Shown here piece after piece: positions 4,497 through 20,446 of a DNA stretch of 63,345 bases. Under the pieces are notes generated by a model. The model saw only the letters and a program-made list of their open reading frames with translations, made no database searches and was not told where the DNA came from. Where the stretch lies: NCBI GenBank assembly GCA_022825235.1, contig JAJDYI010000048.1, forward strand, positions 1-63,345, written 5' to 3'. This stretch comes from Alphaproteobacteria bacterium. Its GTDB lineage: Bacteria; Pseudomonadota; Alphaproteobacteria; TMED109. Position 1 is the first letter of the stretch; the number at the start of each line of letters is the position of its first letter. Made by a program: the position numbers and the translations under genes.

Positions 4497-5105
4497 ATGA
4501 CGTTGGCCGCCCCCCCTTCCGCACGCCGGTTCGCAACGGACTCCCGCGCCGCTGCCGGAATCGAACTTGCCATCGGCACAGTGGCGCTGCTCGCGGTCGC
4601 GATGGTGTGCTTCGACCTTTACTCCCTGGTCAGGCTGGGAACGGCAAGCGCCCGAAGCGCCGTCACCATGGCGGACTACATTTCCCGCGAACGGGCACCG
4701 GACGGCGAGCAGGTGGCAGCGCTCGGTCAGTTCCTGTACGAGACGGAGTTCAAGTCGCCGGCCGATCTGGTGTTCGTCATTTCCGCTGCCCGTGGCCCGG
4801 TGGATGGCGCGGCCCCCACAGTGCTCTGGGTCGACGACACGTTGCGAATCGGTGACCAGGTCACAACGGAAGAACTCGCCACGACAGTGTGCGCCCAAGA
4901 CGGAGAGCGGCGATGGGGAACGGATCTGTTCGGCCTCATCGCCGAAGGCGAAATCGTAATTGTCGCGGAGGTGTGCGCGCGGCCGCGGCGTGAGGGATCG
5001 CTCAGCGGGCGCCTCGTCGGCGGGGATTTCTATCGCCTGCACATGCTGCCCGCCCGGGAGCGGGAGCAAGGACCCGCAAGGCCACTCTATCCGACGGAAA
5101 CATGA
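4497..5105 (+). CDS. TadE/TadF-like minor pilin (second)
   Basis: 202 residues from the ATG at 4497, eight bases after the preceding stop. An in-frame start at 4455 would overlap that gene. The N-terminus has the TadE signature: a short basic leader, then Ala-Ala-Gly-Ile-Glu-Leu-Ala followed by a long hydrophobic helix (about residues 20-44). The Glu five residues into the mature segment is typical of prepilin-peptidase substrates. Two Cys in the globular part (Thr-Val-Cys and Glu-Val-Cys) could form a disulfide. It is probably processed by CpaA (14056-14532) and assembled with Flp. Confidence 0.65.
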   Translation: MTLAAPPSARRFATDSRAAAGIELAIGTVALLAVAMVCFDLYSLVRLGTASARSAVTMADYISRERAPDGEQVAALGQFLYETEFKSPADLVFVISAARGPVDGAAPTVLWVDDTLRIGDQVTTEELATTVCAQDGERRWGTDLFGLIAEGEIVIVAEVCARPRREGSLSGRLVGGDFYRLHMLPAREREQGPARPLYPTET

Positions 5106-5193
5106 ACTCCGGCCGCAACCGCTGCCCCGTGCAGATGGCACCCTAGAGCCTTCCAAGAATCAACATCAAGTGGTATAAGTGCGTCGACAAGCG

Positions 5194-5224
5194 TTGACGG
5201 GGCATATGGATCGCCCTCTATATC
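5194..5224 (+). promoter_or_regulatory. candidate sigma-70 promoter of flp
   Basis: TTGACG at 5194 (five of six bases of the -35 consensus) and TATATC at 5219 (four of six of the -10 consensus), with a 19-base spacer, 74 bases upstream of the flp start. A dedicated promoter is expected because Flp is made in great excess over the assembly proteins. The long spacer weakens the call. Confidence 0.4.
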
Positions 5225-5297
5225 CGCTAGCCAGCAAAGGCGACGTCGTCGTTGCGGACGTCGACGTGTCACGTAATCCAGCTGAGAGGTCCTGAAC

Positions 5298-5549
5298 ATG
5301 GATCGAGCAAATGCATCACGGCGATTCCGCCATTTCCTTCGTGCTCGCGAGGGCGTTTCCGCGCTGGAATACGCCATTCTTGTCGGGATTATCACTGTCG
5401 GTATCGGAACGGCGGTTGCGGCATTCTCTGGCAACCTCACAACTGTAATCGGGCAAATCGCAACTAATGTGACCGGCACTGCCTCGAACTTCGGCACCGC
5501 AGGAGGCGGCCAGAATCCGCAGCCGGGCGGCGGCGGCCAAACCCCGTAG
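5298..5549 (+). CDS. flp: Flp/Fap major pilin precursor
   Basis: 83 residues. After a basic leader comes Arg-Glu-Gly-Val-Ser-Ala-Leu-Glu-Tyr-Ala-Ile-Leu and a 20-residue hydrophobic helix. This is the Flp motif: the prepilin peptidase cuts after Gly, leaving Glu at position 5 and Tyr at 6. The C-terminal third (Gly/Asn/Gln/Pro-rich, three Gly-Gly runs) is longer and more flexible than in many Flp pilins. GAGAGG precedes the ATG. The product is polymerised into the Tad pilus by CpaF, TadB and TadC encoded downstream. Confidence 0.92.
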   Translation: MDRANASRRFRHFLRAREGVSALEYAILVGIITVGIGTAVAAFSGNLTTVIGQIATNVTGTASNFGTAGGGQNPQPGGGGQTP

Positions 5550-5852
5550 GCTCCCTCGCGCCAATCATCGCTGAAAGATCAGCCGTGTAAGCACTGCGGA
5601 AGAGGCAGCACGGACGGCGACAGGCGCATCCGCCTAGGAAGCAGGCTTGTCCCACAACGTTTCCGCTTCGAATTCTGCGGGCTTGACATGCCAAGGGTTG
5701 CTGGGCAGGGCGCTCTGACTAAGTGGTGTCCTGCCGGCTAGCCTAGCCCAGCCATTACCTTGCGCAGCGGTGGCCGGCAGCGACCAAACTCTCGTGGAAC
5801 CGCAGCACACGTGATGTTTCCGTAAAACCGTCAGCCCGAATCAAACTGCCCA
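5550..5852. other. intergenic region between flp and the second cpaE
   Basis: No reading frame with a recognisable product. An isolated TTGACA at 5683 has no matching -10 element. No strong hairpin is visible, so the spacer could carry an untranslated leader or a promoter I cannot define. Confidence 0.4.
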
Positions 5853-7892
5853 ATGGACCTGCATCCAGAACCTCCCGATCAGGATGATGAGCCCGTGGCC
5901 GTTCTGGATGGGCGGGAGTCGAGAGCGCGTCCCCATACGAATGGCGGAAGGGCGGAAGGGTGTCCAGACGATACACCGATTCCTGCGAGACCACCTGCGA
6001 GACCACCGGACACGCGGGATTGGCAGAAGAAATCGGAGCGTTCCGGCGAACTCGCACCGCCCGCTGATGCACCGGAGGGGAAGATCCGTGTGGAAGTCCG
6101 CGCAATCGCGGACGACATCGACGGCTTCCCAATCCTGAAGCATGAGACACCGCCCGAGCCGCAAGCCCCCCGTGATGAGCCTGATGACGAAGCCCTGGCC
6201 TTGGACCCCGGCTTCGAACGCGTACTCGTCGACGGTCTCGCCGGGGATGCATCGATTTCGTCGGAGGATGCAGGCCCGCCCGACGGGCCTGCGGGCGCCG
6301 AGCTAAACGCCCCTGGTGAAGACACCCCGCCGGCGGAAATCCGACTCGAAATTGAGGACACGTTGGTGGCCGGGCTCCCCGACGGTACGTCGTCGGCGAG
6401 CGCGGGCCTGCAGGTACTGCCGGTAGCCGCCGACGCTGCCCGACCATCCGGCGAAGCCGACACGGCGGACTCCGCCAGCAACACCACGATCATCAGCCAG
6501 CCGGCGAGCGACCCTGCAGAGGGCCCGCCGCATTCGCTGTCGAATCAGCCGTGGCCGGGTGTTCCCGAAGCCCATGACCCGGCTGCCGCGGCCGGATCGG
6601 CAGAGCACAGCTCCGTCATGGATGCCGAGACCGCGCCGACGGGGGAAGCCGGCGAGCCGCCCCCGGCCGACGATGCGGTCACCCCCTCATTAGACATTGA
6701 CAGGGCGACGGAACTGCTCGGGGAAGCCCGAGACGGCCATGCCGCCGCCCTCGCCTTCGCCGCAGATCCGGCCACCGAAGCGGCATTCCGCGCGGGGCTG
6801 CTCGACTACGCGGGGCCGATACCTGACGCCGATGACCCGCAGGTCTGGCCCGGCGGCCTCCACGCGGCCCTCACGGCCTTTGCCGACGGGTTCTCGACGC
6901 GACTCGTCATCGTCGACGTCGACGGGATTGCCTACCCCGCCGGGGCGCTCCACGAGCTCGCGGAGGTCTGCGAGATTGGAACCGTCGTCATCGCCGTCGG
7001 ATCGGACGACTCGGCCAAGGCAAGCCGGGAGATCCTGCTGGCAGGGGTCGCCGACTACCTCGTCAAGCCGGTCGACGCCGCGGCTGTCCGGGAAGCGGTG
7101 GCTCGGGCAACCGCTCCCGCCGACGACCGCCTGGTCAACGGCCGGGCGGTCGGCTTCACCGGCACCGGCGGCAGCGGCTCCACGACCCTGGCCGCCGCCA
7201 CCGCGATGCTCATGGCCGAACGCGGCCGCTACGTGTCGGTGCTCGATCTCAATCGGACCTTTCCGGCCACCGCGGAGATGCTCGACGTCGACCCCGCGCC
7301 GGGTCTGGACCAGCTTCTCGAGATCGCCGGCAAAGGGAAGCCCGACCCGCAGATGCTGGACGGCGTGCGGACCGAGCGCACCGACCGCATCGCGGTCTTC
7401 GCGTACCGCTGGTCGCCCGCCCCGCCGCCGGTGCCCACCACGCGGGCCGTGGACTGGCTGCTCGCTGAACTCCGCCACCGCTCCCAGGTCGTGCTCGTCG
7501 ACGGGCTCGACGATCCCGGACTGCACTTCGTTCACCACGAGCAACTGGATGCCCGCGCGCTGGTGATCGAGCCCACGGTGGCCGGTGCCGCCCGCGCCGC
7601 CCGCCTTCTCGACGCCATCGGCGACCGGGCGCCGACTCTCCTTGTCCAGAACCACACGCGTAAGTTCGGTCGCCGCACCGGCAGAAGGCTGTTGCGGCAG
7701 GCGGGGATCCGCACGCGGCCCGACGCCGTGATCCCGTTCGAGCCATCCCTGCCGGAGACCGCGTATCGCGGATGGCCAAAAGGCCTGCTGCCCCGGCGCG
7801 TACGGATGCCGTTGACGCGACTCGCAGACCGGCTCCTGGTCGCGGCCTTCGTCGCGCCGCCGGACTCGTCCGGACCCGCCGGGAGGCCCTGA
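5853..7892 (+). CDS. cpaE: CpaE/TadZ-like ATPase (copy 2) with long disordered N-terminus
   Basis: 679 residues. About the first 280 are rich in Asp, Glu, Pro and Ala with no clear fold. They are followed by a receiver-like domain (Asp-Tyr-Leu-Val-Lys-Pro-Val near residue 405) and a MinD-like ATPase with a degenerate P-loop (Gly-Thr-Gly-Gly-Ser-Gly-Ser-Thr-Thr near 433), again without the catalytic Lys. The C-terminal 400 residues align by eye along their length with the protein at 696-1832, so the two are paralogues. The stop is 2 bases before the cpaF start. It probably helps localise or regulate the pilus machine; the acidic extension may be a partner-binding arm. Confidence 0.85.
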   Translation: MDLHPEPPDQDDEPVAVLDGRESRARPHTNGGRAEGCPDDTPIPARPPARPPDTRDWQKKSERSGELAPPADAPEGKIRVEVRAIADDIDGFPILKHETPPEPQAPRDEPDDEALALDPGFERVLVDGLAGDASISSEDAGPPDGPAGAELNAPGEDTPPAEIRLEIEDTLVAGLPDGTSSASAGLQVLPVAADAARPSGEADTADSASNTTIISQPASDPAEGPPHSLSNQPWPGVPEAHDPAAAAGSAEHSSVMDAETAPTGEAGEPPPADDAVTPSLDIDRATELLGEARDGHAAALAFAADPATEAAFRAGLLDYAGPIPDADDPQVWPGGLHAALTAFADGFSTRLVIVDVDGIAYPAGALHELAEVCEIGTVVIAVGSDDSAKASREILLAGVADYLVKPVDAAAVREAVARATAPADDRLVNGRAVGFTGTGGSGSTTLAAATAMLMAERGRYVSVLDLNRTFPATAEMLDVDPAPGLDQLLEIAGKGKPDPQMLDGVRTERTDRIAVFAYRWSPAPPPVPTTRAVDWLLAELRHRSQVVLVDGLDDPGLHFVHHEQLDARALVIEPTVAGAARAARLLDAIGDRAPTLLVQNHTRKFGRRTGRRLLRQAGIRTRPDAVIPFEPSLPETAYRGWPKGLLPRRVRMPLTRLADRLLVAAFVAPPDSSGPAGRP

Positions 7893-7894
7893 TC

Positions 7895-9298
7895 GTGGCG
7901 GTGCGTTCCTTCGGGCGGCGACCCAGGCCGGTCGCTTCTTCGCATACCCCGGCCGCCAACGGGGCGGGCGATCCTGCGCCGGTGGAGGCCCCGGCGCCTG
8001 CCGCTCCGGTGCAGCGCTTGGCCCCGGCGGGCGGCACGATTGCCGAGATCGTCGCCCGGATCCACCCGATTATCGTCAAGTCGCTGGACATGGCCAAGGT
8101 CGCGGCGCTCGACAACGAACGGCTGGCCGGCCAGCTCCTGTCGTTCCTCAACACCGAGGAAGCCGGAGTGCCGAACCTCGGTCCGCTCGACCGGCAGCAG
8201 GTGGTCACCCAGCTCGTCTACGACATCAAGGGTCTCGGGCCGATCGAGCCCCTGCTGCACGACCCCTCGATTTCCGACATCCTGATCAATGGTACGGGGT
8301 CGGTCTACATCGAGCGGCGAGGCCAGCTCGAGCAGGTGGACGTCCGGTTCCGCGACCGCCAGCATCTCCTCCACATCGCCCAGCGGATTGCCGGGCGGGT
8401 CGGGCGGCGCGTCGACGAGTCGAGTCCGATGGTCGACGCCCGCCTCGCCGACGGCTCGCGCGTGAACATCATCATTCCGCCACTCGCCATCGACGGCGCT
8501 GCGATCTCGATCCGCCGGTTCGTGATGCGCGGCGCGAGCCTCGACCAGATGGCCGAACAGGGCGTGCTGTCGCAGGCGATGGCGACCCTGTTCCGCATCG
8601 GCGTCAAGGCGCGGATCAACACCCTGATCAGCGGCGGGACCGGGGCGGGCAAGACGACCTTCCTGAACACGCTCTCGCGCGAGATCGACGACGGCGAACG
8701 CCTCGTGACCATCGAGGACGCGGCCGAGCTGCAGCTCCAGCAGCCGCACGTGATCCGCCTCGAAACGCGCACGATGAGCGCGGAAGGCACCGGCCAGGTG
8801 ACGATGCGGGACCTTCTCGTGAACCCGCTCCGGATGCGCCCGGATCGGATCATCATCGGCGAGGTACGCGGCGGCGAGGCGATCGAGATGCTCCAGGCCA
8901 TGAACACCGGCCACCCCGGGTCGATGTGCACGCTGCACGCCAACACCCCGCGCGATGCCCTGACCAGGCTGGAGAACATGCTGATGGTGGGCGGTGGCGA
9001 GATTCCCCTGCCGGCGCTCCGGCGCCAGATCGCCTCGGCGATCGACGTGGTCGTCCAGGTGGCCCGCCTGCGCTCGGGCCACCGCTGCGTGACCAGCGTG
9101 ACGAACGTGGTCGGTATCGAAAACGACATCGTCACCACCGAGGAGATCTGGCGGCGACGGCCTGGCGACGGCGAACATGTCTTCGAGACGTCCGGCCGTC
9201 AACCGTCGTGGATGCCGGCGGTCGAGGCGGCCAACCTGCGCGACCCGCTGCTGGCCGCGCTACAGGCGGATCCGCGCATCGGGGAGACGGAGGGATGA
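7895..9298 (+). CDS. cpaF: CpaF/TadA pilus assembly ATPase
   Basis: 467 residues from a GTG at 7895, chosen because GGGAGG lies 8 bases upstream; the frame is open further back but overlaps cpaE. This is a secretion-superfamily (VirB11/GspE) hexameric ATPase. It has Walker A Gly-Gly-Thr-Gly-Ala-Gly-Lys-Thr-Thr (Lys253), an Asp box with Thr-Ile-Glu-Asp-Ala-Ala-Glu-Leu, Walker B-like Arg-Ile-Ile-Ile-Gly-Glu-Val-Arg-Gly, and the His box Asn-Thr-Gly-His-Pro-Gly-Ser. An N-terminal Pro/Ala-rich stretch precedes the conserved all-alpha domain. It powers Flp polymerisation from the cytoplasm. Confidence 0.95.
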   Translation: MAVRSFGRRPRPVASSHTPAANGAGDPAPVEAPAPAAPVQRLAPAGGTIAEIVARIHPIIVKSLDMAKVAALDNERLAGQLLSFLNTEEAGVPNLGPLDRQQVVTQLVYDIKGLGPIEPLLHDPSISDILINGTGSVYIERRGQLEQVDVRFRDRQHLLHIAQRIAGRVGRRVDESSPMVDARLADGSRVNIIIPPLAIDGAAISIRRFVMRGASLDQMAEQGVLSQAMATLFRIGVKARINTLISGGTGAGKTTFLNTLSREIDDGERLVTIEDAAELQLQQPHVIRLETRTMSAEGTGQVTMRDLLVNPLRMRPDRIIIGEVRGGEAIEMLQAMNTGHPGSMCTLHANTPRDALTRLENMLMVGGGEIPLPALRRQIASAIDVVVQVARLRSGHRCVTSVTNVVGIENDIVTTEEIWRRRPGDGEHVFETSGRQPSWMPAVEAANLRDPLLAALQADPRIGETEG

Positions 9299-10260
9299 GC
9301 CCGCTCGCGCTCGCGCTGCTGGCCGCGGGCGGCACCGGGCTGCTCGGGATCGCCATGCTCGCCCTGTTCCGCCGCCGCCGCGAGCAGGAGGTCCGGCGGC
9401 GCCTCCGGCGAACGGCGGTGGAGTTGAGCGGCGATGGCGCGGCCGAAGAGACGGCGGCCACCGAGGATATCTTCCGCCCCACCGAGGGCCGTTCGCGGGC
9501 GGCCTGGCTGTGGCGGTTCATCGAGGCCCGCTACCCGTTGCTCAGTGCGCGGCGGGTGCTGCCGCGGGCGGGCGGGGTCGGCATTGCCGGCGCAGGCGCC
9601 GCCTGGTTTGCCATGTGGTTCCTAAAGATCCCGGCAGGCTGGTGGACAATCGCGCTAGTCGTGCTCGGCGGCGCGGGTGCCACCTGGTACGCGCTGTCCT
9701 GGATCCATGCACGTCTGCAGGCGGAGTTCACGCGCCAGTTCCCCGAGGCCATCGACCAGATCGTGCGGCTGTCGGGCGCAGGCGTGCCGGCCCTGGAGGC
9801 CATTTCCGTCGTCGCCGAAGATGCGCGTCCGCCGGTCGAGCCGATCCTGCGCGACGTCTGCGATGGGCTGCTCGCCGGGCTTGACGCCGACACCGCCCTC
9901 CGCGCCGTCTCCGCGCGCCTGCGGCTCGCCGAGTTCACCCTGTTCGCCGCCGTGATCCGCCTGCAGCGGCGCTCGGGCGGCGGGGTCTCGAGCGCGTTCT
10001 CGAATCTCTCCCGCACGCTCCGGGACCGGCGCGCCACCGCCCTCAAGGCACACTCCTCGACTGCCCAGACCCGCCTGACGCTCCTGGTGCTCACCATGCT
10101 CCCGGTAGTGGTCCTGCTGGCCCAGAAGTACGTGGCGCCGGAATCCGTCGACGTGCTGTTCGGGACCGACGACGGGACGATGCTGCTGCGCTGGGGGGCC
10201 GGCCTCATCGTGGCCGGGATCCTCGGCGCGCGAGCCATCGCCGCCCGCGGCGAGCGATAG
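9295..10260 (+). CDS. tadB: TadB, inner-membrane pilus platform protein
   Basis: 321 residues. It starts at an ATG that overlaps the cpaF stop (ATGA), with GGAGG just upstream. The order is an N-terminal membrane helix, a basic stretch, two more helices around residues 100-150, then a T2SSF domain (Phe-Pro-Glu-Ala-Ile-Asp-Gln-Ile-Val near 150, Arg-Ser-Gly-Gly-Gly-Val-Ser near 226) and two C-terminal helices. TadB and TadC form the membrane base on which CpaF acts. Coupled translation with cpaF fits a fixed stoichiometry. Confidence 0.9.
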   Translation: MSPLALALLAAGGTGLLGIAMLALFRRRREQEVRRRLRRTAVELSGDGAAEETAATEDIFRPTEGRSRAAWLWRFIEARYPLLSARRVLPRAGGVGIAGAGAAWFAMWFLKIPAGWWTIALVVLGGAGATWYALSWIHARLQAEFTRQFPEAIDQIVRLSGAGVPALEAISVVAEDARPPVEPILRDVCDGLLAGLDADTALRAVSARLRLAEFTLFAAVIRLQRRSGGGVSSAFSNLSRTLRDRRATALKAHSSTAQTRLTLLVLTMLPVVVLLAQKYVAPESVDVLFGTDDGTMLLRWGAGLIVAGILGARAIAARGER

Positions 10261-10275
10261 CGAGGGGCGGTCGCG

Positions 10276-11250
10276 ATGCCGGATCCCCTGAGCCTTGTCG
10301 CCGCCCTGTTCGCGGGCGGCGCCGTCGTCCTCGTGCTGGCGCCGCTCATCTTTCGCGAGACGCAGCGCGCGCGCGCGATCGACCGGCGCCTCGCGACCGT
10401 TCGGGAGCAGGCGTTGCAGGCGGGCGCCCCTTCGCTCGACCGGCTCGACCGAACGGCGGGCAACCCGCTCCGGTCGCTCGGCGCCGCGATCCTTCGAATG
10501 GGCTCGATCCTCGTGCCGGTGGGGGCCGCCGAGCGCGAGAAGCTCGCGCGGATCCTGCGGCAGGGCGGCTTCCTGCAGCCGGAGGCACTCTCCTACTTCC
10601 TGTCGGCCAAGCTCGCGAGCGCCGTCGCCTTCGGCGCCGGGGCCGGCCTGATGGCCGCCAACTCCGCAATGCTCAGCCAGTACGGCGTCCTCGTCGCGAT
10701 GGCGGCGCTCGCGGGACTCGTGGTCGGCGGGATCGTCCCGGAATATGGACTGCGCACGCTGGTCTCCCGGCGCGCGCGACGGATCACCGCCGTTCTCCCC
10801 GACGCCCTCGACATGCTGGTGATGTGCCTCGAGGCCGGCCTCACCGTAGAGCGCGCGATCATGACGGTGAGCGAGGAGCTCAGGCCGATCGAGCGTAGCC
10901 TCGCCGGCGAGTTCCGGCAGATCGAAGCGGAACTCCGGCTCAGCGCCGACCGGCGCGCGGCACTCGGCGAGTACTACCGCCGCACCGAGATCGACGGGCT
11001 GCGTGATCTGGCGATGGCGCTCATCCAGAGCGAGCGGTACGGCACCCCGATGTCACAGTCGATGCGGGCCATCGCCGCGGACGAACGGCTGCAGAAGGCG
11101 GCGCGGATCACGGCCCAGGCCGAGCGTCTCCCAGTGCTGATGACCCTGCCGATGCTCCTGCTCGTGATGCCGGGCACGTTCCTCCTGGTCGCGGGCCCGG
11201 CATTCCTGACCGCGACCCGGGCATTCGGCACGATCGGGGGCGGTGGGTGA
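10276..11250 (+). CDS. tadC: TadC, inner-membrane pilus platform protein
   Basis: 324 residues, 15 bases after tadB with a GAGGGG ribosome site. Membrane segments lie near the N-terminus, at about 115-155 and at the C-terminus. A T2SSF domain has Leu-Pro-Asp-Ala-Leu-Asp-Met-Leu-Val-Met-Cys-Leu-Glu-Ala-Gly at about 175-190 and a Ser-Glu-Arg-Tyr-Gly-Thr-Pro motif near 255, both typical of TadC/GspF. The stop overlaps the start of the cytochrome gene (GTGA). Confidence 0.9.
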   Translation: MPDPLSLVAALFAGGAVVLVLAPLIFRETQRARAIDRRLATVREQALQAGAPSLDRLDRTAGNPLRSLGAAILRMGSILVPVGAAEREKLARILRQGGFLQPEALSYFLSAKLASAVAFGAGAGLMAANSAMLSQYGVLVAMAALAGLVVGGIVPEYGLRTLVSRRARRITAVLPDALDMLVMCLEAGLTVERAIMTVSEELRPIERSLAGEFRQIEAELRLSADRRAALGEYYRRTEIDGLRDLAMALIQSERYGTPMSQSMRAIAADERLQKAARITAQAERLPVLMTLPMLLLVMPGTFLLVAGPAFLTATRAFGTIGGGG

Positions 11251-12230
11251 CGGTGCGCGCCCGCATGCCGCGGCGCCGGCCGTGGCGCCGTTCCCTGCTC
11301 GCGCTCGCGGCAGCGACCACGCTGACGGTGGCCGGGGCCGGCGCCCAGGAGCCGATCAAGCCGATTCCTGAGCAGATCGACGTGGACCCCGGCAAGGTGG
11401 AACTGGGCCGGGCCCTCTTCCACGACACCCGTCTCTCGAAGGACGGCACCATCTCCTGCGCGAGCTGCCACGACCTCGCGAGTGGCGGTGACGACGGGCG
11501 CCGGGTCTCGATCGGGGTCGACGGCAAGCTCGGGATGATCAACTCGCCGACGGTGTTCAACGCGGGCTTCAACTTCAAGCAGTTCTGGGACGGCCGCTCG
11601 GACACGCTCGAGGATCAGGCCGATGCGCCGATCCAGTCCGCCATCGAGATGGGAAGCATTTGGCCGGATGTCGTCGCCAAGCTCTACATGGATGAGGGCT
11701 ATCCCCAGCAGTTCGAGGCCATCTACCCGGACGGGATTACCCGCACCGCGATCAAGGACGCCATCGCCGAGTTCGTTCGGTCCCTGATCACGCCCAACGG
11801 CCGCTTCGATCGATGGCTCCGGGGCGACACCGCGGCCCTCACCCGGGAGGAGGAGCGCGGCTACCGGCTCTTCAAGCAATACGGCTGCGTCTCATGCCAC
11901 CAGGGCGTGAACGTCGGAGGGAACATGTTTCAGGTCTTCGGCGTGCTCAACGACTACTTCAGGCGGCGCGGCAACATCACCGACGCCGATCTCGGCCGCT
12001 ATGCCGTGACCGGCAACGAGGAGGACCGACATGCGTTCAAGGTACCGAGCCTGCGGATGGCGGCCATGACTGCTCCATACCTTCACGACGGCAGCGCGGC
12101 GACCCTGCGCGACGCCGTCGACGCCATGTTCGAGTTTCAATTGGGACGCGAAGCGCCCGAGCAGGACAAGGACGACATCGTCGCTTTCATCAAGACGCTG
12201 GCGGGCGAGTCCGAGGAGTTATCACCATGA
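11247..12230 (+). CDS. di-haem cytochrome c peroxidase / MauG-family protein
   Basis: 327 residues, GTG start overlapping the tadC stop. A basic N-terminus and hydrophobic stretch ending Ala-Gly-Ala-Gln looks like a Sec signal peptide. Two c-haem motifs are present: Cys-Ala-Ser-Cys-His at 71-75 and Cys-Val-Ser-Cys-His at 214-218. The order and flanking motifs (Phe-x-Asp-Gly-Arg, Thr-Ala-Pro-Tyr-Leu-His-Asp-Gly-Ser near 275) match bacterial CcpA/MauG. Such enzymes reduce hydrogen peroxide or oxidise protein side chains in the periplasm. Presence inside a tad operon, overlapping genes on both sides, is unusual. It may sense or detoxify peroxide for the kinase encoded next; that link is inference. 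Confidence 0.88.
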   Translation: MTVRARMPRRRPWRRSLLALAAATTLTVAGAGAQEPIKPIPEQIDVDPGKVELGRALFHDTRLSKDGTISCASCHDLASGGDDGRRVSIGVDGKLGMINSPTVFNAGFNFKQFWDGRSDTLEDQADAPIQSAIEMGSIWPDVVAKLYMDEGYPQQFEAIYPDGITRTAIKDAIAEFVRSLITPNGRFDRWLRGDTAALTREEERGYRLFKQYGCVSCHQGVNVGGNMFQVFGVLNDYFRRRGNITDADLGRYAVTGNEEDRHAFKVPSLRMAAMTAPYLHDGSAATLRDAVDAMFEFQLGREAPEQDKDDIVAFIKTLAGESEELSP

Positions 12231-13996
12231 GACCTAGCACAGTCATTTTCGGCGCTGCTGTCTCGGTCGCCCTGCTGATCGTGGCCGGCGTCCTCTACAG
12301 CCTCTCCGGCGACGGTAGCGGCGAGCATCACCGCAGGTCCGTCGATCTCGTCCGGCAAATCCAGCTGGCCTCCTCCGACTGGAGCGCGGAGATCACCCGC
12401 GTCAGGTCCAATCCGTTTGCGGACTTCGACACCCTTGCGGCTTTCATTCCGCAGATGGCGCGCCTCAAGCAGGATCTCACCGACGAGGCCCTGCGCATCC
12501 CCGACCTCCCGGACCGAATCACCGCGGACGTCCAGGCCTACCTCAACGCCATCGAAGCCAAGGAAGAGCGCATCGAGCGCTTCAAGACCGGCTATGCCGT
12601 GGTGCGCAATTCCTCACGCTACCTGCCGCTCGCGGCGACCAACGTGCTGCAGCTGGCGCAGGGGGCAAACGACCCTGTCCTCCGGCAGAGGATCTCGGGC
12701 CTGACCCGTGACATCAATCTCTTTCTCGCGACGCCAACGCCAACGACCGAAGCTCGGCTCAAGGACGAAATCGAGCGACTGAGAGGGGACAGCGTCGCGT
12801 ATACCCCCGATCTTGCCAACGCGCTCGCGAATCTCCTGGCCCACGCGGACGTCCTAGTCTCCCGACAGGGACCTACCGAAGAACTCTTCCGGCTCGCGAC
12901 GTCCGACGAGATCGCCGACCTCACCGATAACCTCGTTCGGAGCCTCGAGTTCGAGCGCAGCCGCGCGGATCTCGCGACCACGCGTTACCAGCAGGGCGTC
13001 CTGGTCGTCATCGGCGTCCTCATCGTGTTCTGGGCCCTGCTTGCGCTTCAGCAGCGCTTCCGGAGTTCCCGGGCGGCCGCGACCGCGGGTCAGCAAGAGC
13101 CATCCGTTGCCGCAGCACCGGCTCGCGCGCAACCCAGCCTGGTGGCACCGGCGGAACAGGCATTGGGCGCGGCTGAGCCCACGCCGCCCCCCCGCTCGCC
13201 GCCGACTGCCCGAGACAGGGAGCCTTCTCCCTCGGCCGTTCGAGCAGCGGAGCCCGCGCTGCTGCACGGGTTCGTCGTACAGTGCATTGCCGGCACGCTG
13301 GCTACGTCGACCGACGAGATCGTCGGTCGCATGGAATTCCTCGGGCGGACACAGCTGAAGATCCACGAAGCCCTGGAGACCGGCGACGCTGGCGCCATGT
13401 TCGCCGATGGCGCCAATCTCAAGGAGGAGATCGATTCGATTGCGGCGATTGCCCAGAACGTCCGCCAGAAGATGAACGGCTTCGCCGATCTTGCAAAGCG
13501 GCTCGAATCCGTCACGACCGCAACACCGACCGCCCGCGCCGCCCGCAGCATGATCAGCGTCAACACCTGCATCGAAGACGTCATCGCGGCAACCGGCGCG
13601 GAACGCCGGGCAAGCATCGTCAAGAGCCTGGGCGACATCCCCGAGATCTTCGCATCGGAGGGTGAGTTCCGTCTGCTCCTGGCAGAGGTCATCGAGAACT
13701 CCCTGCTCGCCGTGCAGGACCTTGCCGATCGCCAGGGGATCGTCAAGATCGAAACCGCGCAGAAGAACGGCGACATCCTGGTCACGGTCATCGACAACGG
13801 CGCGGGTATCGCGCCGGAAATGCGCATGCAGATCTTCAAGCCGTTCTTCACGTCGAGGGAAGACGCCATCGGGATCGGGCTGACGCTGGCTGGCCACCTG
13901 GCCAAGCAGTACGAGGGCGTGATTAAGATCAACTCGCTCCTTGGCCAGGGAACCGTCGCCCGCATCACGCTTCCCGCCAGCATCGCAGGACCCTGA
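12227..13996 (+). CDS. membrane sensor histidine kinase-like protein
   Basis: 589 residues from an ATG overlapping the peroxidase stop (ATGA). Membrane helices at about 6-26 and 257-275 bracket an all-helical periplasmic domain that resembles the DAHL type. A Pro/Ala-rich linker follows, then a helical segment without a clear H-box, then a GHKL ATPase: N-box Glu-Val-Ile-Glu-Asn-Ser, G1 Asp-Asn-Gly-Ala-Gly-Ile, F-box Phe-Lys-Pro-Phe-Phe-Thr-Ser, G2 Gly-Ile-Gly-Leu. It could autophosphorylate on a divergent His or act as a non-canonical kinase. No response regulator is adjacent, but both CpaE proteins carry receiver-like domains. Confidence 0.75.
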   Translation: MRPSTVIFGAAVSVALLIVAGVLYSLSGDGSGEHHRRSVDLVRQIQLASSDWSAEITRVRSNPFADFDTLAAFIPQMARLKQDLTDEALRIPDLPDRITADVQAYLNAIEAKEERIERFKTGYAVVRNSSRYLPLAATNVLQLAQGANDPVLRQRISGLTRDINLFLATPTPTTEARLKDEIERLRGDSVAYTPDLANALANLLAHADVLVSRQGPTEELFRLATSDEIADLTDNLVRSLEFERSRADLATTRYQQGVLVVIGVLIVFWALLALQQRFRSSRAAATAGQQEPSVAAAPARAQPSLVAPAEQALGAAEPTPPPRSPPTARDREPSPSAVRAAEPALLHGFVVQCIAGTLATSTDEIVGRMEFLGRTQLKIHEALETGDAGAMFADGANLKEEIDSIAAIAQNVRQKMNGFADLAKRLESVTTATPTARAARSMISVNTCIEDVIAATGAERRASIVKSLGDIPEIFASEGEFRLLLAEVIENSLLAVQDLADRQGIVKIETAQKNGDILVTVIDNGAGIAPEMRMQIFKPFFTSREDAIGIGLTLAGHLAKQYEGVIKINSLLGQGTVARITLPASIAGP

Positions 13997-14055
13997 GTGT
14001 CGGCGCCGTAACGGGCGTCTGACTGCGCCCGCCACAAGAAACGGAGACGGGATTC

Positions 14056-14532
14056 GTGGATGGTACCGGGTGGGTCGCAGGCCTCGCGCTATGGGCAGCC
14101 TGCGCGGCGTTTGGCGCCGCCGTGGTCACCGACCTCCGTCATCGCGTGGTGCCGAATGCGATTCCGCTCATCCTCCTCGCTCTCTTTGCGCTCCTTGTGC
14201 TCATCGGCGAGGTTCCCCCGCCGGGATCGTGGTGGGCACACATTGCGATCGGCGCGGCATTCCTCTTCGCAGGGTTTGGCCTGTACCTGACCGGAAGGTT
14301 CGGTGCGGGGGACGCAAAACTGATGGCTGCGGCCGGACTTTGGGTCGGGCCGGGGGAACTCAGCACGTTCCTGCTCAGCCTGGCCGCGGGCGCGTTCGCC
14401 CTGAGCCTGGTCGCCCTGTTGCCGTTCGACACCACGCGGCGCTGGCGAACGGAACTCCCCTTCGCGGTCGCGATTGTGCCGGCCGTGGCAGCGGTCCTCG
14501 TTCCGCGCACGCTGGCGCACTGGTACCCGTAG
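14056..14532 (+). CDS. cpaA: CpaA/TadV prepilin peptidase (A24 family)
   Basis: 158 residues from GTG, with GGAGACGGG upstream. It is a multi-pass membrane protein. The two catalytic aspartates of type IV prepilin peptidases are visible: Asp in Val-Val-Thr-Asp-Leu-Arg-His-Arg-Val-Val-Pro-Asn near residue 25, and Asp in Gly-Ala-Gly-Asp-Ala-Lys-Leu near 89. The length matches the short TadV class, which lacks the methylase domain. It cleaves the leaders of Flp and the TadE-like pilins. Confidence 0.92.
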   Translation: MDGTGWVAGLALWAACAAFGAAVVTDLRHRVVPNAIPLILLALFALLVLIGEVPPPGSWWAHIAIGAAFLFAGFGLYLTGRFGAGDAKLMAAAGLWVGPGELSTFLLSLAAGAFALSLVALLPFDTTRRWRTELPFAVAIVPAVAAVLVPRTLAHWYP

Positions 14533-14575
14533 CCGCTATCGTAACCAGCGGCGCTACGCCTGGAGGAGCCTAGCA

Positions 14576-15634
14576 ATGCGACGATTTCGCATGGTCATCA
14601 TCATGGTCATGCTGGCCGTCGTGCCCCTGGGTGTCGGCCTCGTCGTCTACTCGTGGACGCCGGGCGAGGTGGTCACCGTGGAACCAAGCACACCGCCGGC
14701 CCCCCCGCCGCCACCACCCGAGACGCGCACGGTTCTCGCAGCCGCGCGCGACCTGCCGCTCGGGACACTGCTGCGGGAGGAGGATCTGGCAGAGATCGAG
14801 GTCGTGGCCGATGCTGTCCGGCGCGGGTATGTGGTCGTGGAGGATCCGACGGCGGCCTATGCCGTGCGTGGCCACGCCGTGCGCGAGGCCATCGGCGCCG
14901 GCGCACCGCTTTCCTGGTCGGCCGTCGTGGGCCCCGGACAGCGAGGGTTCCTCGCGGCGGTGCTGCGGCCCGGCACCCGGGCAGTGACCATCTCGCTGGG
15001 ACCGGCCGCCAGTCACGCCGGGCTGATCGATCCGGGCGATCGCGTGGATGTGATCCTGACGGCGGCACTCCGTCTCGAGAACGACACCCAAGGCGTCTTC
15101 ACCCGCACCATCCTTGAAGGCGTGCGCGTGGTGGCTATCGACCGCTTTGTCGAACGGAGCGCCGAATCTCTTGAGCGCGGGGGCGCCGTCGAACGCACCG
15201 AAATCGTTACAGCCACCCTTGAAGTCTCCCCGGCCCAAGCCAGCCGGCTCGCGCACGGCCAGCAAGAAGGCCGACTCTCGCTGGCGGTCCGCGCGCTGGC
15301 GGGCGCCGGCCCGGAGCACCCCACAGAAGCTGTCGATCTCCCGCAGCTAATGTCGCTGCCGACAGCGGACACCGAACCTGAACCGGAAGAGGAAATCATC
15401 CTGGAAGAGGTGACTGAACCGGATGACGACATCGGAACGTCAACCGTGAAGTCGGTTCGCGTCATTCGCGGCAGAGAGGTGTCCGAGGAGTATTTTCCCG
15501 AACCCGACGGACTCCTGCCCGCGGGCACCGAGATAGATACCGAGACGGGCGCCGACGCCGCGTCCGCCCCGAAGGTGCGGTTCGAGCCAAGCGAACCCAA
15601 CTCGCTGACCGACACGGAAAGTGTGGTCCGGTAG
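14576..15634 (+). CDS. cpaB: CpaB/RcpC pilus assembly protein
   Basis: 352 residues from the ATG at 14576, preceded by GGAGGAG. A membrane anchor at about 6-26 is followed by a Pro-rich linker and a SAF domain (Ala-Ala-Arg-Asp-Leu-Pro-Leu-Gly-Thr-Leu-Leu, about 56-130). The RcpC/CpaB core follows, with Gly-Thr-Arg-Ala-Val-Thr-Ile-Ser-Leu and Gly-Asp-Arg-Val-Asp-Val-Ile-Leu-Thr near 165. The C-terminal 90 residues are strongly acidic, which is longer than usual. CpaB works with the outer-membrane secretin, which is not seen in this window. Confidence 0.92.
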   Translation: MRRFRMVIIMVMLAVVPLGVGLVVYSWTPGEVVTVEPSTPPAPPPPPPETRTVLAAARDLPLGTLLREEDLAEIEVVADAVRRGYVVVEDPTAAYAVRGHAVREAIGAGAPLSWSAVVGPGQRGFLAAVLRPGTRAVTISLGPAASHAGLIDPGDRVDVILTAALRLENDTQGVFTRTILEGVRVVAIDRFVERSAESLERGGAVERTEIVTATLEVSPAQASRLAHGQQEGRLSLAVRALAGAGPEHPTEAVDLPQLMSLPTADTEPEPEEEIILEEVTEPDDDIGTSTVKSVRVIRGREVSEEYFPEPDGLLPAGTEIDTETGADAASAPKVRFEPSEPNSLTDTESVVR

Positions 15635-15647
15635 CCGGAGGCACAAC

Positions 15648-17795
15648 ATGGAAACCCAGCGCCAATCGAACGCCATGGAGTTCTCGGACCGCTTCTTGCG
15701 CGCGGCCGCTGCCCTGCCGGCTGAGGTGCGGCGCCGCATGGATGGCACGGCGCCGCTCGACTGGGCGCTTCTCGAGGCCGCCGGAACCGCTGCCGAACTC
15801 CGAGAGGCCATCGGCGCGTACCGCCGGCTTCCGGAGCCCGTCGAGGGACTCGTGCAGTGCCTGATTCTGGAGGTCGGGATTGTGCCCGCAGATCTTGCCG
15901 CCGGCGTCGAGCGGCAGCGGCTAGCCGTGGCCTGGACCCATGGAGCGGCAGTCGACCCGGAAGGCGAGAGCTACCGGATCCGGGATCATCTCACCGGCGA
16001 ATTCCACTCCGGAATCCGCCCGGAGGCAGTCGCCGGCTACGCGGTCCTCGCTCTGGAACTTGCGGCGGCCGTGCATCACACCTGTACCCTCTGGACCCGC
16101 TCCGGCGAACCCGGCCGGGCGGACGGCAGCGATCTGAACCGGCTTGGCGGGTGGGCAGCGCGAATGGCCGAGCGTCTTCGATCGGCGGTCGACACGCACG
16201 CGGAAGACTTCACGACTCGCCAGGCTGCGTGCGCACTCGACGACGCCTGGAACGCGCAGAGCCTGGCCGAGCGCGCCGAGCGCGCTGCCATCCCGCTGCG
16301 CCTCTCGCACGATGCGCGCGCACCGCGTTTCTGCCACTTCGCCCCGATGCGGAGTTATCGCCTCCACGCCTATGATCTGGGCGAGATCCGCTGGCTGTGT
16401 GCGCTGGCTGAGCAAGCGGCGCACCGCGCTTCAGCCGAAACACAGGTCCCTGTGACCGCGCACGAAGCGGCTAGTGACGAGGCGGTGTCCGCGAGTACTC
16501 GAACGGCCCGAACCCGTCCAGATGAACCCTCTGCCACGAGGTCAGTATCGAGCCACCACCCCGGTTCGGGGAATAGGTCAACGGATGATGGCGGCTCGAA
16601 AGCGATACCGCCAACTCCCGTACCCGCCGGCACCACAGCATTCGAACCAGACCCGGACGACCTTGCCATCGGCAGGGAACTTGGCGGCCTCGGGCGGTCG
16701 GCAGCACCGTTCGACCCAGACCCGGATGACCTCGCCATCGGCAAGGAACTTGGCGACCTCGGGCGGTCGGCAACACCGTCCGGTCCCGACCCGGACGACC
16801 TGGCCGCCGGGAAGGAACTCGACAGCCTTAGGCATTTGGCAAGTGCTTCCCGCCAAGCAACCGCTGACACCGAGCCAGAAGACCCGACGGCCGCGAACAT
16901 CGCTACCCTCGAAGCGCAAATTCATGCAGATACCGCAAGCGCATTCGAGCTTGGTTCAGACCCCCGCGAACTGACGCTGGACGAGGAGTTGTCCCGCCTG
17001 GAGCGCGCCGCGACCCAGCTACCCGATCCAGTTCGACGGCGGCTGGGGGACACTTATGGAATTGGCGTGACCCAAGCGCTTGAGCGTCTTCAGAACCTGG
17101 CGTCGGCCGACGCCGTGCGCGCCGAGGTGCGTGCAGCTGATTCCGGCGGCCGGGCGCCGGCCTGGTTGGGAGACCTCGCCGCCGCAATCTTGCGCGATGG
17201 CGGCGCACAAACGCGAAGCGGCTTGCGGACTCCCCCCCTCCACCTCGGTTCCGAAGAGGAGTCAGGTAGCGGATACCGCGCCACCGACCTCGAAACCGGC
17301 GGCCACGGGCAACTCACGGTAATCGGGCTGGTTGAGCAAATGCACCTTGGCCTGACCTTCGCCTGCAACGCGTGGACGGGCCTGACCTTGCTCCGCAGCG
17401 CCGGGCTGGAAGGAAGCTGGACCCTGCAGCAGCGCGAGGCAGCCTCGAACGGGTTTGTGGCCGGCGATCGCGAGGTGCTGGAGGCGGCCCGGCAGATCAA
17501 CCTCGCCCTGGATCGCATCGAGCGGCCACATGCCGCCGCGAAGCGCAATAGCACTTCCCGGGTGCAAGCTTCCATAGCCGCACGCGCGTTGCTTGCGGTC
17601 GGACCGAACACCCGCACCACCGCCGGATGGCCGGGCCATGCAACAGTGCCCGATCCGCAGAACGCTAGTGATGTCGCACAGATTTCGGCCATGGCGGAGG
17701 CGCTACGCGGGCGTGTCCGGGTGACCTCCAACCGGCTGATCTCGGGACAGGTAGGCAACTTGTCCACCCAGGCCGCGGGTCAGGAAGCAGGATAA
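15648..17795 (+). CDS. large protein of unknown function with 23-residue repeats
   Basis: 715 residues from an ATG with GGAGG 6 bases upstream, 13 bases after cpaB; an earlier in-frame ATG at 15621 would overlap cpaB. There is no signal peptide or membrane helix. The N-terminal 270 residues are helical with some Cys/His. The middle (about 275-400) is disordered and carries three near-perfect repeats of Asp-Pro-Asp-Asp-Leu-Ala-Ile-Gly-Lys-Glu-Leu-Gly plus a weaker fourth. The C-terminal 250 residues are Ala-rich helices. I do not recognise the family. Position suggests a cytoplasmic partner of the pilus system. Confidence 0.7.
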   Translation: METQRQSNAMEFSDRFLRAAAALPAEVRRRMDGTAPLDWALLEAAGTAAELREAIGAYRRLPEPVEGLVQCLILEVGIVPADLAAGVERQRLAVAWTHGAAVDPEGESYRIRDHLTGEFHSGIRPEAVAGYAVLALELAAAVHHTCTLWTRSGEPGRADGSDLNRLGGWAARMAERLRSAVDTHAEDFTTRQAACALDDAWNAQSLAERAERAAIPLRLSHDARAPRFCHFAPMRSYRLHAYDLGEIRWLCALAEQAAHRASAETQVPVTAHEAASDEAVSASTRTARTRPDEPSATRSVSSHHPGSGNRSTDDGGSKAIPPTPVPAGTTAFEPDPDDLAIGRELGGLGRSAAPFDPDPDDLAIGKELGDLGRSATPSGPDPDDLAAGKELDSLRHLASASRQATADTEPEDPTAANIATLEAQIHADTASAFELGSDPRELTLDEELSRLERAATQLPDPVRRRLGDTYGIGVTQALERLQNLASADAVRAEVRAADSGGRAPAWLGDLAAAILRDGGAQTRSGLRTPPLHLGSEEESGSGYRATDLETGGHGQLTVIGLVEQMHLGLTFACNAWTGLTLLRSAGLEGSWTLQQREAASNGFVAGDREVLEAARQINLALDRIERPHAAAKRNSTSRVQASIAARALLAVGPNTRTTAGWPGHATVPDPQNASDVAQISAMAEALRGRVRVTSNRLISGQVGNLSTQAAGQEAG
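16650..16856 (+). repeat. three tandem 69-bp units (23 residues)
   Basis: Units begin at 16650, 16719 and 16788. Each encodes Asp-Pro-Asp-Asp-Leu-Ala followed by Gly-(Lys/Arg)-Glu-Leu and a short linker ending near Leu-Gly-Arg-Ser-Ala. Unit length is exactly 69 bp. A diverged fourth unit lies near 16940-17010. They are probably binding motifs or the product of slippage. Confidence 0.85.
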
Positions 17796-18236
17796 CCGTC
17801 GGGGCCGGAGCCAACGTACCTGCGCGTCCAACCTGATGCATGACCGGCCGCCCATAACGTCTTCGGGCGCGCCGGGCAGCGGGCCGTGGGAGTCCGGCGC
17901 ATCGTTCCCTCGTGCGACTGCCAGCCGATCATGCGTGCCAGGCGCGCCCAACGCGCCGGGCCACAACGCAATAGTGCGGTTCGGCGGAACTTCGGAGATG
18001 GTGCATAACTTAGTTGCATGATACTATGTGTGTTGGTTATCTTCTTATTCTGTCGCACCGGGGGCACTGGCGTTCGGCTGGTGCGTGAAGACCCGAATTA
18101 TCGCACTGTCGCTGTTCGGTCCGCTCCTGACTTGGGCTTCGGGGCTCTCCTTCGGTCGCCGTGATCCACCTGAGGTTTCCTGACGACCTAAGCGTGAACA
18201 ACGGCAGGGAGAAGGGAATGTACAGCAGGCACAAGC
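17796..18236. other. intergenic region upstream of the globin operon
   Basis: No convincing gene. Bases 18000-18055 are clearly more AT-rich than the surroundings and are the likely promoter area for the globin genes, but no clean -35/-10 pair or Fnr/NsrR-type palindrome could be defined by eye. Confidence 0.4.
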
Positions 18237-18731
18237 ATGTCTGAGAGTGCGCTGCTAACCGCTGACGAAAAGCAGATGATTGTCAGCAGCTATCGCCTGA
18301 TTGCGCCGATCTCGGAAACCGTTGGCGACCTGTTCTACAAGCGGCTGTTCGAGACCCAACCGCAGTATCGCGAGCTGTTCCCGGAAGACATGGGCAAGCA
18401 GAAGCGAAAACTGATGACCATGCTGGCATTCATTGCCAAGTGCCTGGATTGGACCGAGGGGCAGTGGAGGCAGAATGTCCAGCCGGACGAGGATCTCTTC
18501 CTCGTTGTCCTCGCGCTGGGACGCCGACACCACGTCCTATACAAGATTCCTGACGAGGCCTACGGCCCGGTGAGAGCATCGCTGTTCTGGGCGCTGGAGC
18601 AGGGTTTGGGCGAGGCCTTCACCAAGGAACTCCATCAAGCCTGGAGCAAGCTCTATACCGCCCTCGCAACGAGTATGCAGCTTGGAGCGAAATCCTCGCG
18701 CATCAAGATGGAATTCGGCTACATCGAATGA
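18237..18731 (+). CDS. single-domain bacterial globin (flavohaemoglobin-like fold)
   Basis: 164 residues. Globin signatures are visible: the A-helix, Phe-Tyr-x-Arg-Leu-Phe (B/C region), Leu-Phe-Pro-Glu-Asp with CD1 Phe48, a likely proximal His98 in Gly-Arg-Arg-His-His, then Pro-Asp-Glu-Ala-Tyr and Ala-Trp-x-Lys-Leu-Tyr in the H helix. No reductase domain follows, so it resembles Vitreoscilla-type or sensor globins rather than Hmp. It binds O2 or NO haem-dependently. The stop overlaps the start of the next gene (ATGA), which suggests that both products act together. Confidence 0.85.
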   Translation: MSESALLTADEKQMIVSSYRLIAPISETVGDLFYKRLFETQPQYRELFPEDMGKQKRKLMTMLAFIAKCLDWTEGQWRQNVQPDEDLFLVVLALGRRHHVLYKIPDEAYGPVRASLFWALEQGLGEAFTKELHQAWSKLYTALATSMQLGAKSSRIKMEFGYIE

Positions 18732-20446
18732 ACAATAGCCCTCCTCCGCCTGCAGCCCCCTTTCTGTGGGGGTCACTCGAGACATTCCCGCTCGAGCGCG
18801 TGTTCGGAGTACTGGCGCTCAGCCGGCAGCTGGTCGGCGTCCGCCTCTCTGACGCGGAACGGGAAGTGGGTGCCATCACCGTCAAAGCGGGCCACGTGCT
18901 TGGGGCCGAAGACTTCCGCACCCCGGCGAGCGGTACCACCGCGCTGAAGACCCTGATTCGAGAACCAGGTACGGCGTTCTCAGTTACCAGGCTCCCTGTC
19001 GATCAGGCCCAAATGCGTGATGCCATAGTTATCGGCACCCTCAGCGAGCTGTTCCCAAAAACTGACAACGGGCACGTCAGGCGTACCGTGGCTTCCGCAC
19101 CTGCTCGAGTACGCCCGGAGGCAGACTCCGCTACCGATCACCGGCACAAGGCATCGGGGGTGCCAGCGTCAACCAGCAGATCCGGAGGCGAGCCGGCGGC
19201 AGGTGGCGACGGTGATGCAGCGAATTCATCGCCGTCGGGGCGTGACCCCCGGAAAACGGTCGACGACAGCGCGCTTGCTGCCGCTGCGAATGGGTACGAA
19301 TCGCGCTCTCCGGGTGCGGTAACGGCGCCCGCGCCTGAGACGGCGTCGGCCGGGGTGGACGCTGGAGACGCGCAGGGCGTGCCCCCCGCGGCCAAGGCAA
19401 CGGACGAGGTGATCCTGCGCGGTACGTTGGAAGCGTTCCACCTTGAGGAATTGCTTGAGGTGCTGCAGCTGATCCCGGCCCCTCTGCGGATTTTGTTCAT
19501 GCGGGACGGGGATGTGGTCGGGACGCTCGAACTCATGTCTCAGCAGGTTGTCACGACGGCTGCCGGACCGCTGCATGGAAAAGAGGCCTTTGCGAAACTC
19601 TACGCTGATCCAGGCGAGACGTTCGAGGTGCGGAAGACCGAGGAAATGGGGCGGGCGGGCGCTCTCGGCAGCCTCTCCGAACTGCTGGTTGAGGCGCGAG
19701 AAGCGCGTCCGGCACCGTCCGGCAAGCAAGCTGCACCGAAGAGCGAACGGTCACTGCTCATGGAAGGTCGGCTGGCGGATTTCTCGTTCGAACTCCTGAT
19801 CGCGTCTCTTGATCGCTCCCGGCAGCCAATCGAGCTGGAACTGCGTAGCGACGGTGAACCCGTACACCGGGTGCAGCTCAGATCGGGGCACATCCTGTCC
19901 GCCGAGAGTGTGGGCATCGGGGACGGGGATCGGGCACTGGCGGCAATCCGCGAGAATCCGGGAACCGCGTTTGCCGTTTACCGACGCAGGGAGCTTCAGG
20001 ACGGGGCGGCCATCGCTCCGTTGAAAGTGCTGCTTTCGGGGCCAGATCCAGCTCCGGCACCCGGCCCCAGGGTGGCCCGCACCGCCGACCGGCCGGTCAA
20101 CGTCCCTGCAGAAGCCGTGCGCGGGGAGACCGAGACGGAAGATGGCCGTTTCTCAGGTATCGAGGGCCGTCTCGACATCCTCGCCGTCAGCATCACCGAA
20201 CTGCGGCAGGCGCTGGAGGACCGGAAGCAGGTTCCCGGCGAGACGCCGCAAGTCCCGCAGGCATTATCCGAGTTCGTGAGCGCGACGGCCAATTTCGTGA
20301 CCGTGCTTGAAAAGTCCCACAAGGATGCACTGCTGCAGGTATGCAACACGCTGAAGACGCGCCACCGCGGCGCGCTGCGGGCCGTCATTGTGCTGCAGTG
20401 CGCCTGCCTGGTTCTCATTTTCCTTGCGGCATTTGTCGCCCTGTAG
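18728..20446 (+). CDS. triple PATAN/DUF4388-like protein with C-terminal membrane anchor
   Basis: 572 residues. Three repeated domains, at about 12-100, 228-320 and 343-435, share the pattern Gly-x-Leu-x-x-Phe-x-Leu-Glu, a hydrophobic strand, a Gly-x-(Val/Ile)-x-(Gly/Ser)-Ala-(Glu/Gln) hairpin and Gly-x-x-Phe-x-Val at the end. This is the layout of PATAN (DUF4388) domains found in bacterial signalling, polarity and gliding proteins. A predicted coiled region at about 480-535 precedes a membrane helix at the extreme C-terminus (about 550-570). Translational coupling to the globin points to an oxygen- or NO-linked signalling pair. Family assignment is by pattern only. Confidence 0.6.
   Translation: MNNSPPPPAAPFLWGSLETFPLERVFGVLALSRQLVGVRLSDAEREVGAITVKAGHVLGAEDFRTPASGTTALKTLIREPGTAFSVTRLPVDQAQMRDAIVIGTLSELFPKTDNGHVRRTVASAPARVRPEADSATDHRHKASGVPASTSRSGGEPAAGGDGDAANSSPSGRDPRKTVDDSALAAAANGYESRSPGAVTAPAPETASAGVDAGDAQGVPPAAKATDEVILRGTLEAFHLEELLEVLQLIPAPLRILFMRDGDVVGTLELMSQQVVTTAAGPLHGKEAFAKLYADPGETFEVRKTEEMGRAGALGSLSELLVEAREARPAPSGKQAAPKSERSLLMEGRLADFSFELLIASLDRSRQPIELELRSDGEPVHRVQLRSGHILSAESVGIGDGDRALAAIRENPGTAFAVYRRRELQDGAAIAPLKVLLSGPDPAPAPGPRVARTADRPVNVPAEAVRGETETEDGRFSGIEGRLDILAVSITELRQALEDRKQVPGETPQVPQALSEFVSATANFVTVLEKSHKDALLQVCNTLKTRHRGALRAVIVLQCACLVLIFLAAFVAL

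Follow-up and report, generated by a model that had tools for sequence, protein, structure and literature searches.

Why a haem peroxidase and a sensor-like membrane protein should be encoded in the midst of genes for a pilus is the question raised by the window, as we call the whole 63,345-nucleotide stretch of alphaproteobacterial DNA analysed here (assembly GCA_022825235.1, contig JAJDYI010000048.1). In it, tadC (10276–11250), a gene of the di-haem cytochrome c peroxidase family (DHCP; 11247–12230, with a GTG start) and a gene for a membrane sensor with a DAHL domain (12227–13996) follow one another end to end on the plus strand of a single tad locus. A preliminary description of this DNA gave these coordinates correctly; it held that overlaps of 4 bases join the three genes into one translated unit, and that the enzyme and the sensor, taken to be a kinase, could make pilus production depend on peroxide or electron-acceptor state.

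A conserved peroxidase–sensor pair

The conserved unit is the DHCP–DAHL pair, and not its insertion into a tad operon. A scan of genome contigs yielded 25 loci, 23 of them with true relatives of the window's sensor, and in all 23 the DHCP gene lies directly 5' of the sensor gene. A survey of Pfam-defined DAHL genes across the class and the phylum found a DHCP gene immediately upstream in 34 of 35 evaluable loci, the only evaluable DAHL gene lacking one (L047/L056) having none within the 16 kb examined; in another phylum, both loci (L093 and L094) have DHCP directly 5' of a DAHL–GGDEF–EAL protein, its output domains being read from the sequence. The junction is similarly constrained, with an exact 4-base overlap in 40 of 55 loci and all distances between −9 and +4 bases – values measured to the start nearest the DHCP stop, a choice that favours small distances, not the exact value of four. 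In the window the DHCP gene stands directly upstream of the sensor gene, on the same strand, and overlaps it by ATGA at 12227–12230. The other overlap in the preliminary description, GTGA at 11247–11250 between tadC and the DHCP gene, is likewise present and is the weaker, less certain case, because alternative DHCP starts occur at 11253 and 11265 and among the tad loci with the pair the distance between the tadC stop and the nearest start ranges from −3 to +3 bases.

Counting the window, the pair follows tadC in 15 loci and stands elsewhere in 9. The 15 come from Defluviicoccus, other Alphaproteobacteria, Gammaproteobacteria, Immundisolibacterales and one metagenome-assembled genome (MAG) labelled Bryobacterales, and MAGs of alpha- and gammaproteobacteria account for most of them. 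The preliminary description had suggested a survey of tad operons for the same insertion, and would have given up its idea had the arrangement proved unique or independently promoted; the 15 tad loci rule out a unique or chance insertion, and a consensus scan of 5000–18500 found no sigma-70-like promoter on the plus strand, such scans being weak for GC-rich organisms. Within the genus, CpaF was found at the threshold used in three of seven genomes (the window's own, G001 and G006), and the sensor in the same three.

Known parallels suggest how such a pair might be read. Campylobacter jejuni docA, which encodes a cytochrome c peroxidase (CcP), lies immediately upstream of docB/Tlp10 (PMC3156733), and the DAHL domain was described from Tlp10 (PMC9796306). 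DocA–DocB, known to us here from these papers alone, thus resembles the window in having a putative peroxidase gene directly 5' of a DAHL receptor gene, but its output is a methyl-accepting chemotaxis protein, with neither a tad operon nor a HATPase domain. Canonical DAHL kinases (for example, among L057–L084) also share the overlapping or abutting 5' DHCP gene and the succession of DAHL domain, transmembrane segment and kinase core, but differ in having a normal H box, such as LHNVGNVLNSV or SHEIRTPMN.

Because the pairing and overlap are conserved while the outputs vary, from GGDEF–EAL proteins to the docA/docB chemoreceptor, the DHCP–DAHL pair can be read as a modular receptor, probably a general sensory module found mostly outside tad operons. 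In the TorT–TorS and LuxP–LuxQ receptors, a periplasmic binding protein is the sensory partner of a membrane receptor; DHCP–DAHL may be analogous in mode, the partner in those cases not being a haem enzyme. In the open-licence papers searched we found no description of the DHCP–DAHL pairing as a general module. On this reading, genes that now carry the separate annotations 'cytochrome c peroxidase' and 'DAHL sensor' may in many cases encode two-subunit redox receptors, and the effect of docA/docB on colonisation, so far unexplained, would gain a reason open to testing.

A sensor without its phosphoacceptor histidine

The sensor combines a DAHL domain at residues 33–254 (PF19443, 111.2 bits against a cut-off of 38; 8.1e-32) with a transmembrane segment, a Pro/Ala-rich linker, a helical hairpin and a HATPase_c domain at 482–584 (57.6 bits; 2.1e-15). 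Hydrophobic helices, at about 3–27 and within 228–287 in the AlphaFold model, flank the DAHL domain. The model, built with 22 homologues, shows long DAHL helices, a hairpin (335–384/395–432) and a histidine-kinase catalytic core, and the PDB structures that match it best are kinase cores, that of ZraS among them; its predicted local distance difference test score (pLDDT) of 80 and predicted template modelling score (pTM) of 0.43 leave the relative placement of the domains unsure.

What the window's sensor lacks is an H box: there is no HisKA match and no phosphoacceptor His of the orthodox kind. The preliminary description had noted the absence of a clear H box, and the same holds for the whole clade, tad-linked and otherwise, with none in any of the 21 readable members, against at least 24 canonical DAHL kinases that have one. 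Since the canonical His column fell in a gap region of the MAFFT alignment, the loss is argued from the lack of any conserved His together with a motif search and the fold. Among 19 aligned clade members the hairpin has no conserved His and few invariant residues; H347, at the start of the hairpin in the window, is His in just 10 of the 19 (otherwise Gln, Arg or Asn), a lack of conservation that rules it out as a substitute acceptor.

The ATP site, by contrast with the H box, is intact, with the N, G1, F and G2 motifs all present (N491, D523, G525, G527, G549 and G551 being invariant, and F537 present). Across five close pairs, the ratio of non-synonymous to synonymous substitution rates (dN/dS) is 0.17–0.28 overall and 0.05–0.48 for the HATPase part, with the linker and hairpin the least conserved region in most pairs. 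The sensor of this clade thus appears to be maintained, probably ATP-binding and incompetent for phosphotransfer: it is unlikely to act as an orthodox histidine kinase, because the acceptor His is missing clade-wide and no other hairpin His is conserved.

No response regulator was recognised in the flanking genes examined, as the preliminary description had it, apart from the receiver-like N termini that it had also seen on both CpaE copies. These keep the Asp, Ser and Lys positions, the Pfam Response_reg match being just E 0.05, for P0006. Its suggestion that the sensor phosphorylates the CpaE receivers fared less well: with the acceptor His lost throughout the clade, this route is unlikely and is ruled out as the leading mechanism, and the receivers could instead be phosphorylated by something other than the window's sensor. 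A plasmid search gave generic kinase matches only.

A peroxidase with a putatively open haem

Assignment of the enzyme to the CCP_MauG family follows from its Pfam match (3.7e-58) and two CxxCH haem sites, C71xxC74H75 (CASCH) and C214xxC217H218 (CVSCHQG), and its PDB matches include 9qdt (7.5e-93) and 1iqc (4.9e-74). It has a signal peptide recognisable by eye and is the only PF03150 protein in the genome, which also encodes CcmF. It scored 159.5 bits against a cut-off of 443.85 for NCBIfam TTQ_mauG, well short of an assignment as MauG of tryptophan tryptophylquinone (TTQ) biosynthesis. M294, conserved as Met in most relatives, we take from the alignment to be the axial Met. The active-site residues Q124, P128 and E134 and the bridging W114 are identified by alignment, with residue roles from the literature (PMC6405878, PMC10094543), and are likewise kept in most relatives.

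It departs from classical bacterial cytochrome c peroxidases at the distal position of the P haem, which is Val in the window. In the first alignment this position is occupied by a residue other than His (Val, Ile and others) in all DAHL-linked DHCPs, and in a second sample, drawn by peroxidase family and having some DAHL-linked loci in common with the first, it is Val or Ile in 10 of 10 DAHL-linked enzymes and His in 16 of 19 unlinked ones. Loss of the distal His thus tracks pairing with a DAHL sensor. In the classical enzymes the oxidised P haem is bis-His ligated, and the distal His must leave before H2O2 binds (PMC10094543); because that residue is absent here, the P haem of DAHL-linked DHCPs should be permanently accessible to peroxide or some comparable ligand, with no need for reductive activation. 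Relative to the bCcP/MauG superfamily as a whole, then, the window's enzyme shares the two c-haem sites, the FWDGR motif, the Gln/Pro/Glu active site and the axial Met, but differs in the replacement of the distal His by Val or Ile, in its link to a sensor and in a CHQG-x-N-x-GGN-like signature at the second haem.

A proposed redox receptor and its alternatives

Building on what is directly observed – the pairing, the overlap, the residue changes, the conservation and the operon position – we propose that DHCP and the DAHL protein form one receptor that passes an ATP-dependent conformational signal to the Tad machinery and so tunes adhesion to the redox state of the periplasm, a proposal to which we would give even chances. 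The exported DHCP would be the redox-responsive subunit, its open P haem reacting with peroxide or some ligand like it; the co-translated sensor would pair with it through the periplasmic DAHL domain and read its state; and the His-less ATPase core would change conformation in an ATP-dependent, phosphotransfer-independent manner and, by acting on a partner, adjust adhesion. In the window this partner would be the Tad machinery, whose genes lie in the same run. Redox sensing by DHCP is inferred from the conserved pairing. A narrower version, in which the signal from DHCP through DAHL lets the His-less GHKL ATPase directly control the Tad motor or platform, and the vWA-like protein in the non-tad clade, we offer tentatively, as a possibility with the balance of probability against it.

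The coupling advanced in the preliminary description survives in part: a periplasmic redox enzyme is paired with a periplasm-sensing membrane protein within a tad operon, an arrangement kept in relatives, and it is the route through CpaE phosphorylation that falls away. To judge from the genes, pilus-based attachment probably responds to peroxide or redox state in the window's bacterium and some relatives. Direct control of the Tad machine as in the narrower version, if true, would amount to a redox switch that works on a pilus post-translationally, and would stand as one case of a wider class of DHCP–DAHL redox receptors. The clade also points to His-less, kinase-like ATPases as a family kept in two or more genomic settings, a pilus operon among them.

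Several points weigh against this proposal. Most tad loci lack the pair: of the 289 genomes sampled in the class, 120 have CpaF and 7 have DAHL, the two standing side by side only in the window's genome. Nine relatives have the pair outside tad, where the gene for a von Willebrand factor A (vWA)-like membrane protein comes next in all eight readable cases, so that Tad cannot be an obligatory target. For Tlp10, detection of small ligands, malate among them, by the DAHL domain has been reported (PMC9796306), and DAHL itself may sense metabolites. The physical complex, its ligand and the Tad target are, moreover, our inference, and haem-dependent signalling and an effect on pili are predictions.

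Other explanations account for part of the evidence. The His-less protein might be a pseudokinase regulator, which, like DivL, would pair with or inhibit another kinase or bind receivers, those of CpaE included, so that the final output would be an ordinary phosphorelay; the retained helical hairpin and ATP core, the kinase-like fold of the model, the Asp, Ser and Lys of the CpaE receivers and the presence of other kinases in the genome all fit, whereas none of the loci examined has a recognisable gene for a partner kinase next to the pair and the few invariant hairpin residues leave no conserved receiver-docking surface apparent. We consider this rather unlikely. Ordinary detoxification appears less probable still: here DHCP would remove host-derived or respiratory H2O2, the sensor merely tuning it, and the tad position would reflect co-expression in surface life, with no signalling to the pilus. 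Retention of the active-site residues in the only DHCP of the genome would suit such a role, but not the near-obligatory link, seen in two phyla or more, to a sensor whose outputs differ, nor the loss of the distal His in step with that sensor; and in C. jejuni the CcPs, DocA included, do not contribute to H2O2 resistance, while mutation of docA impairs chick colonisation (PMC3156733).

The remaining two alternatives concern the sensor alone. A kinase that is active through a non-canonical phosphoacceptor, such as H347 or a Ser, Thr or Asp, would be compatible with the intact ATP site, the purifying selection and the His that the window has at the hairpin start, yet it is very improbable in view of the variation at that position and because the hairpin conserves no other His and nothing else that resembles an acceptor. 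That the sensor belongs to a decaying two-component system, having lost its His and begun to drift, is hardly credible: the kinase gene is interrupted in one relative (L025) and conservation is lowest in the linker and hairpin in most pairs, but dN/dS is well under 1 in all five pairs, which disfavours decay, and the sensor has been maintained across diverged clades in many lineages.

Distribution and genomic surroundings

In a tree, the window's sensor groups with those of Defluviicoccus, while its own genus-mates (L032 and L034) branch apart; this may reflect either horizontal transfer of the tad cassette or old paralogy. Most relatives are MAGs, and several of their names – the names alone – resemble those of sponge or other host metagenomes. 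The tad–DHCP–DAHL loci L022 (labelled Bryobacterales) and L027 (labelled Alphaproteobacteria) are nearly identical; as their phylum labels nevertheless differ, one or both have probably been misbinned. L021 and L026 belong to a single MAG, and one gammaproteobacterial MAG (G684) has both a tad-type and a non-tad-type pair (L030 and L033).

The flanks of the pair are genuine tad genes, as the preliminary description supposed, with Flp, CpaE, CpaF, TadB and TadC encoded 5' and CpaA and CpaB 3', all on the plus strand. They comprise a Flp pilin gene (5298–5549; Flp_Fap 1.2e-6, slightly under the curated cut-off); cpaE/tadZ with its receiver-like N-terminal domain (5853–7892; weak ParA-type matches, with the D, S and K kept in the alignment); the cpaF/tadA ATPase gene (7772–9298; T2SSE 6.1e-61, and TIGR03819 at 5e-98, below the cut-off of that model), the true start of which may be further downstream; tadB (9295–10260, its start inferred within open reading frame 8926–10260; T2SSF 6.3e-17); tadC itself (T2SSF 7.8e-16); the cpaA/tadV prepilin peptidase gene (14056–14532; Peptidase_A24 4.4e-15); and cpaB/rcpC (14576–15634, in open reading frame 14474–15634; TIGR03177 2.6e-52, RcpC 1.4e-27). 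A second CpaE-like gene with a receiver-like domain, recognised by alignment with other CpaE proteins, lies at 696–1832 on the same strand. The locus thus shares Flp, CpaE, CpaF, TadB, TadC, CpaA and CpaB with Tad/Flp (type IVc) operons; it differs from them in having the pair after tadC and, close by, a further cpaE, a globin gene and a DUF4388 gene.

In the non-tad loci, the third gene (3' of the pair; L024, 9683–10882, with equivalents in L023, L025, L031 and L035–L038) encodes a transmembrane protein of about 400 residues that matches no Pfam family, its model containing a long coiled coil and matching vWA-type structures weakly in Foldseek; L031 and L038 have a second copy with a TonB_C-like tail (a weak match in L031). 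In some tad loci (L016, 9919–11238; L017, 9957–11276; L018–L020; and L029) a further membrane protein is encoded between the His-less sensor and cpaA, with, by eye, a Cache-like periplasmic domain followed by a HAMP-like tail and no output domain; it was not found in the window. An AAA_15-type ATPase gene lies 3' of the sensor gene in several relatives (L011, 11988–14030; L012; L029; L030).

Beyond cpaB, 15621–17795 encodes a large protein with no Pfam match; tad loci of Defluviicoccus and others have strongly conserved counterparts (1e-123 to 1e-152), likewise downstream of cpaB. Also near the tad genes, a globin gene (18237–18731; Pfam 1.8e-8) overlaps a DUF4388 gene (18728–20446) whose product has a C-terminal hydrophobic segment; the two also occur together in the genus-mate G001 (L012), and the globin is a second haem protein in the neighbourhood.

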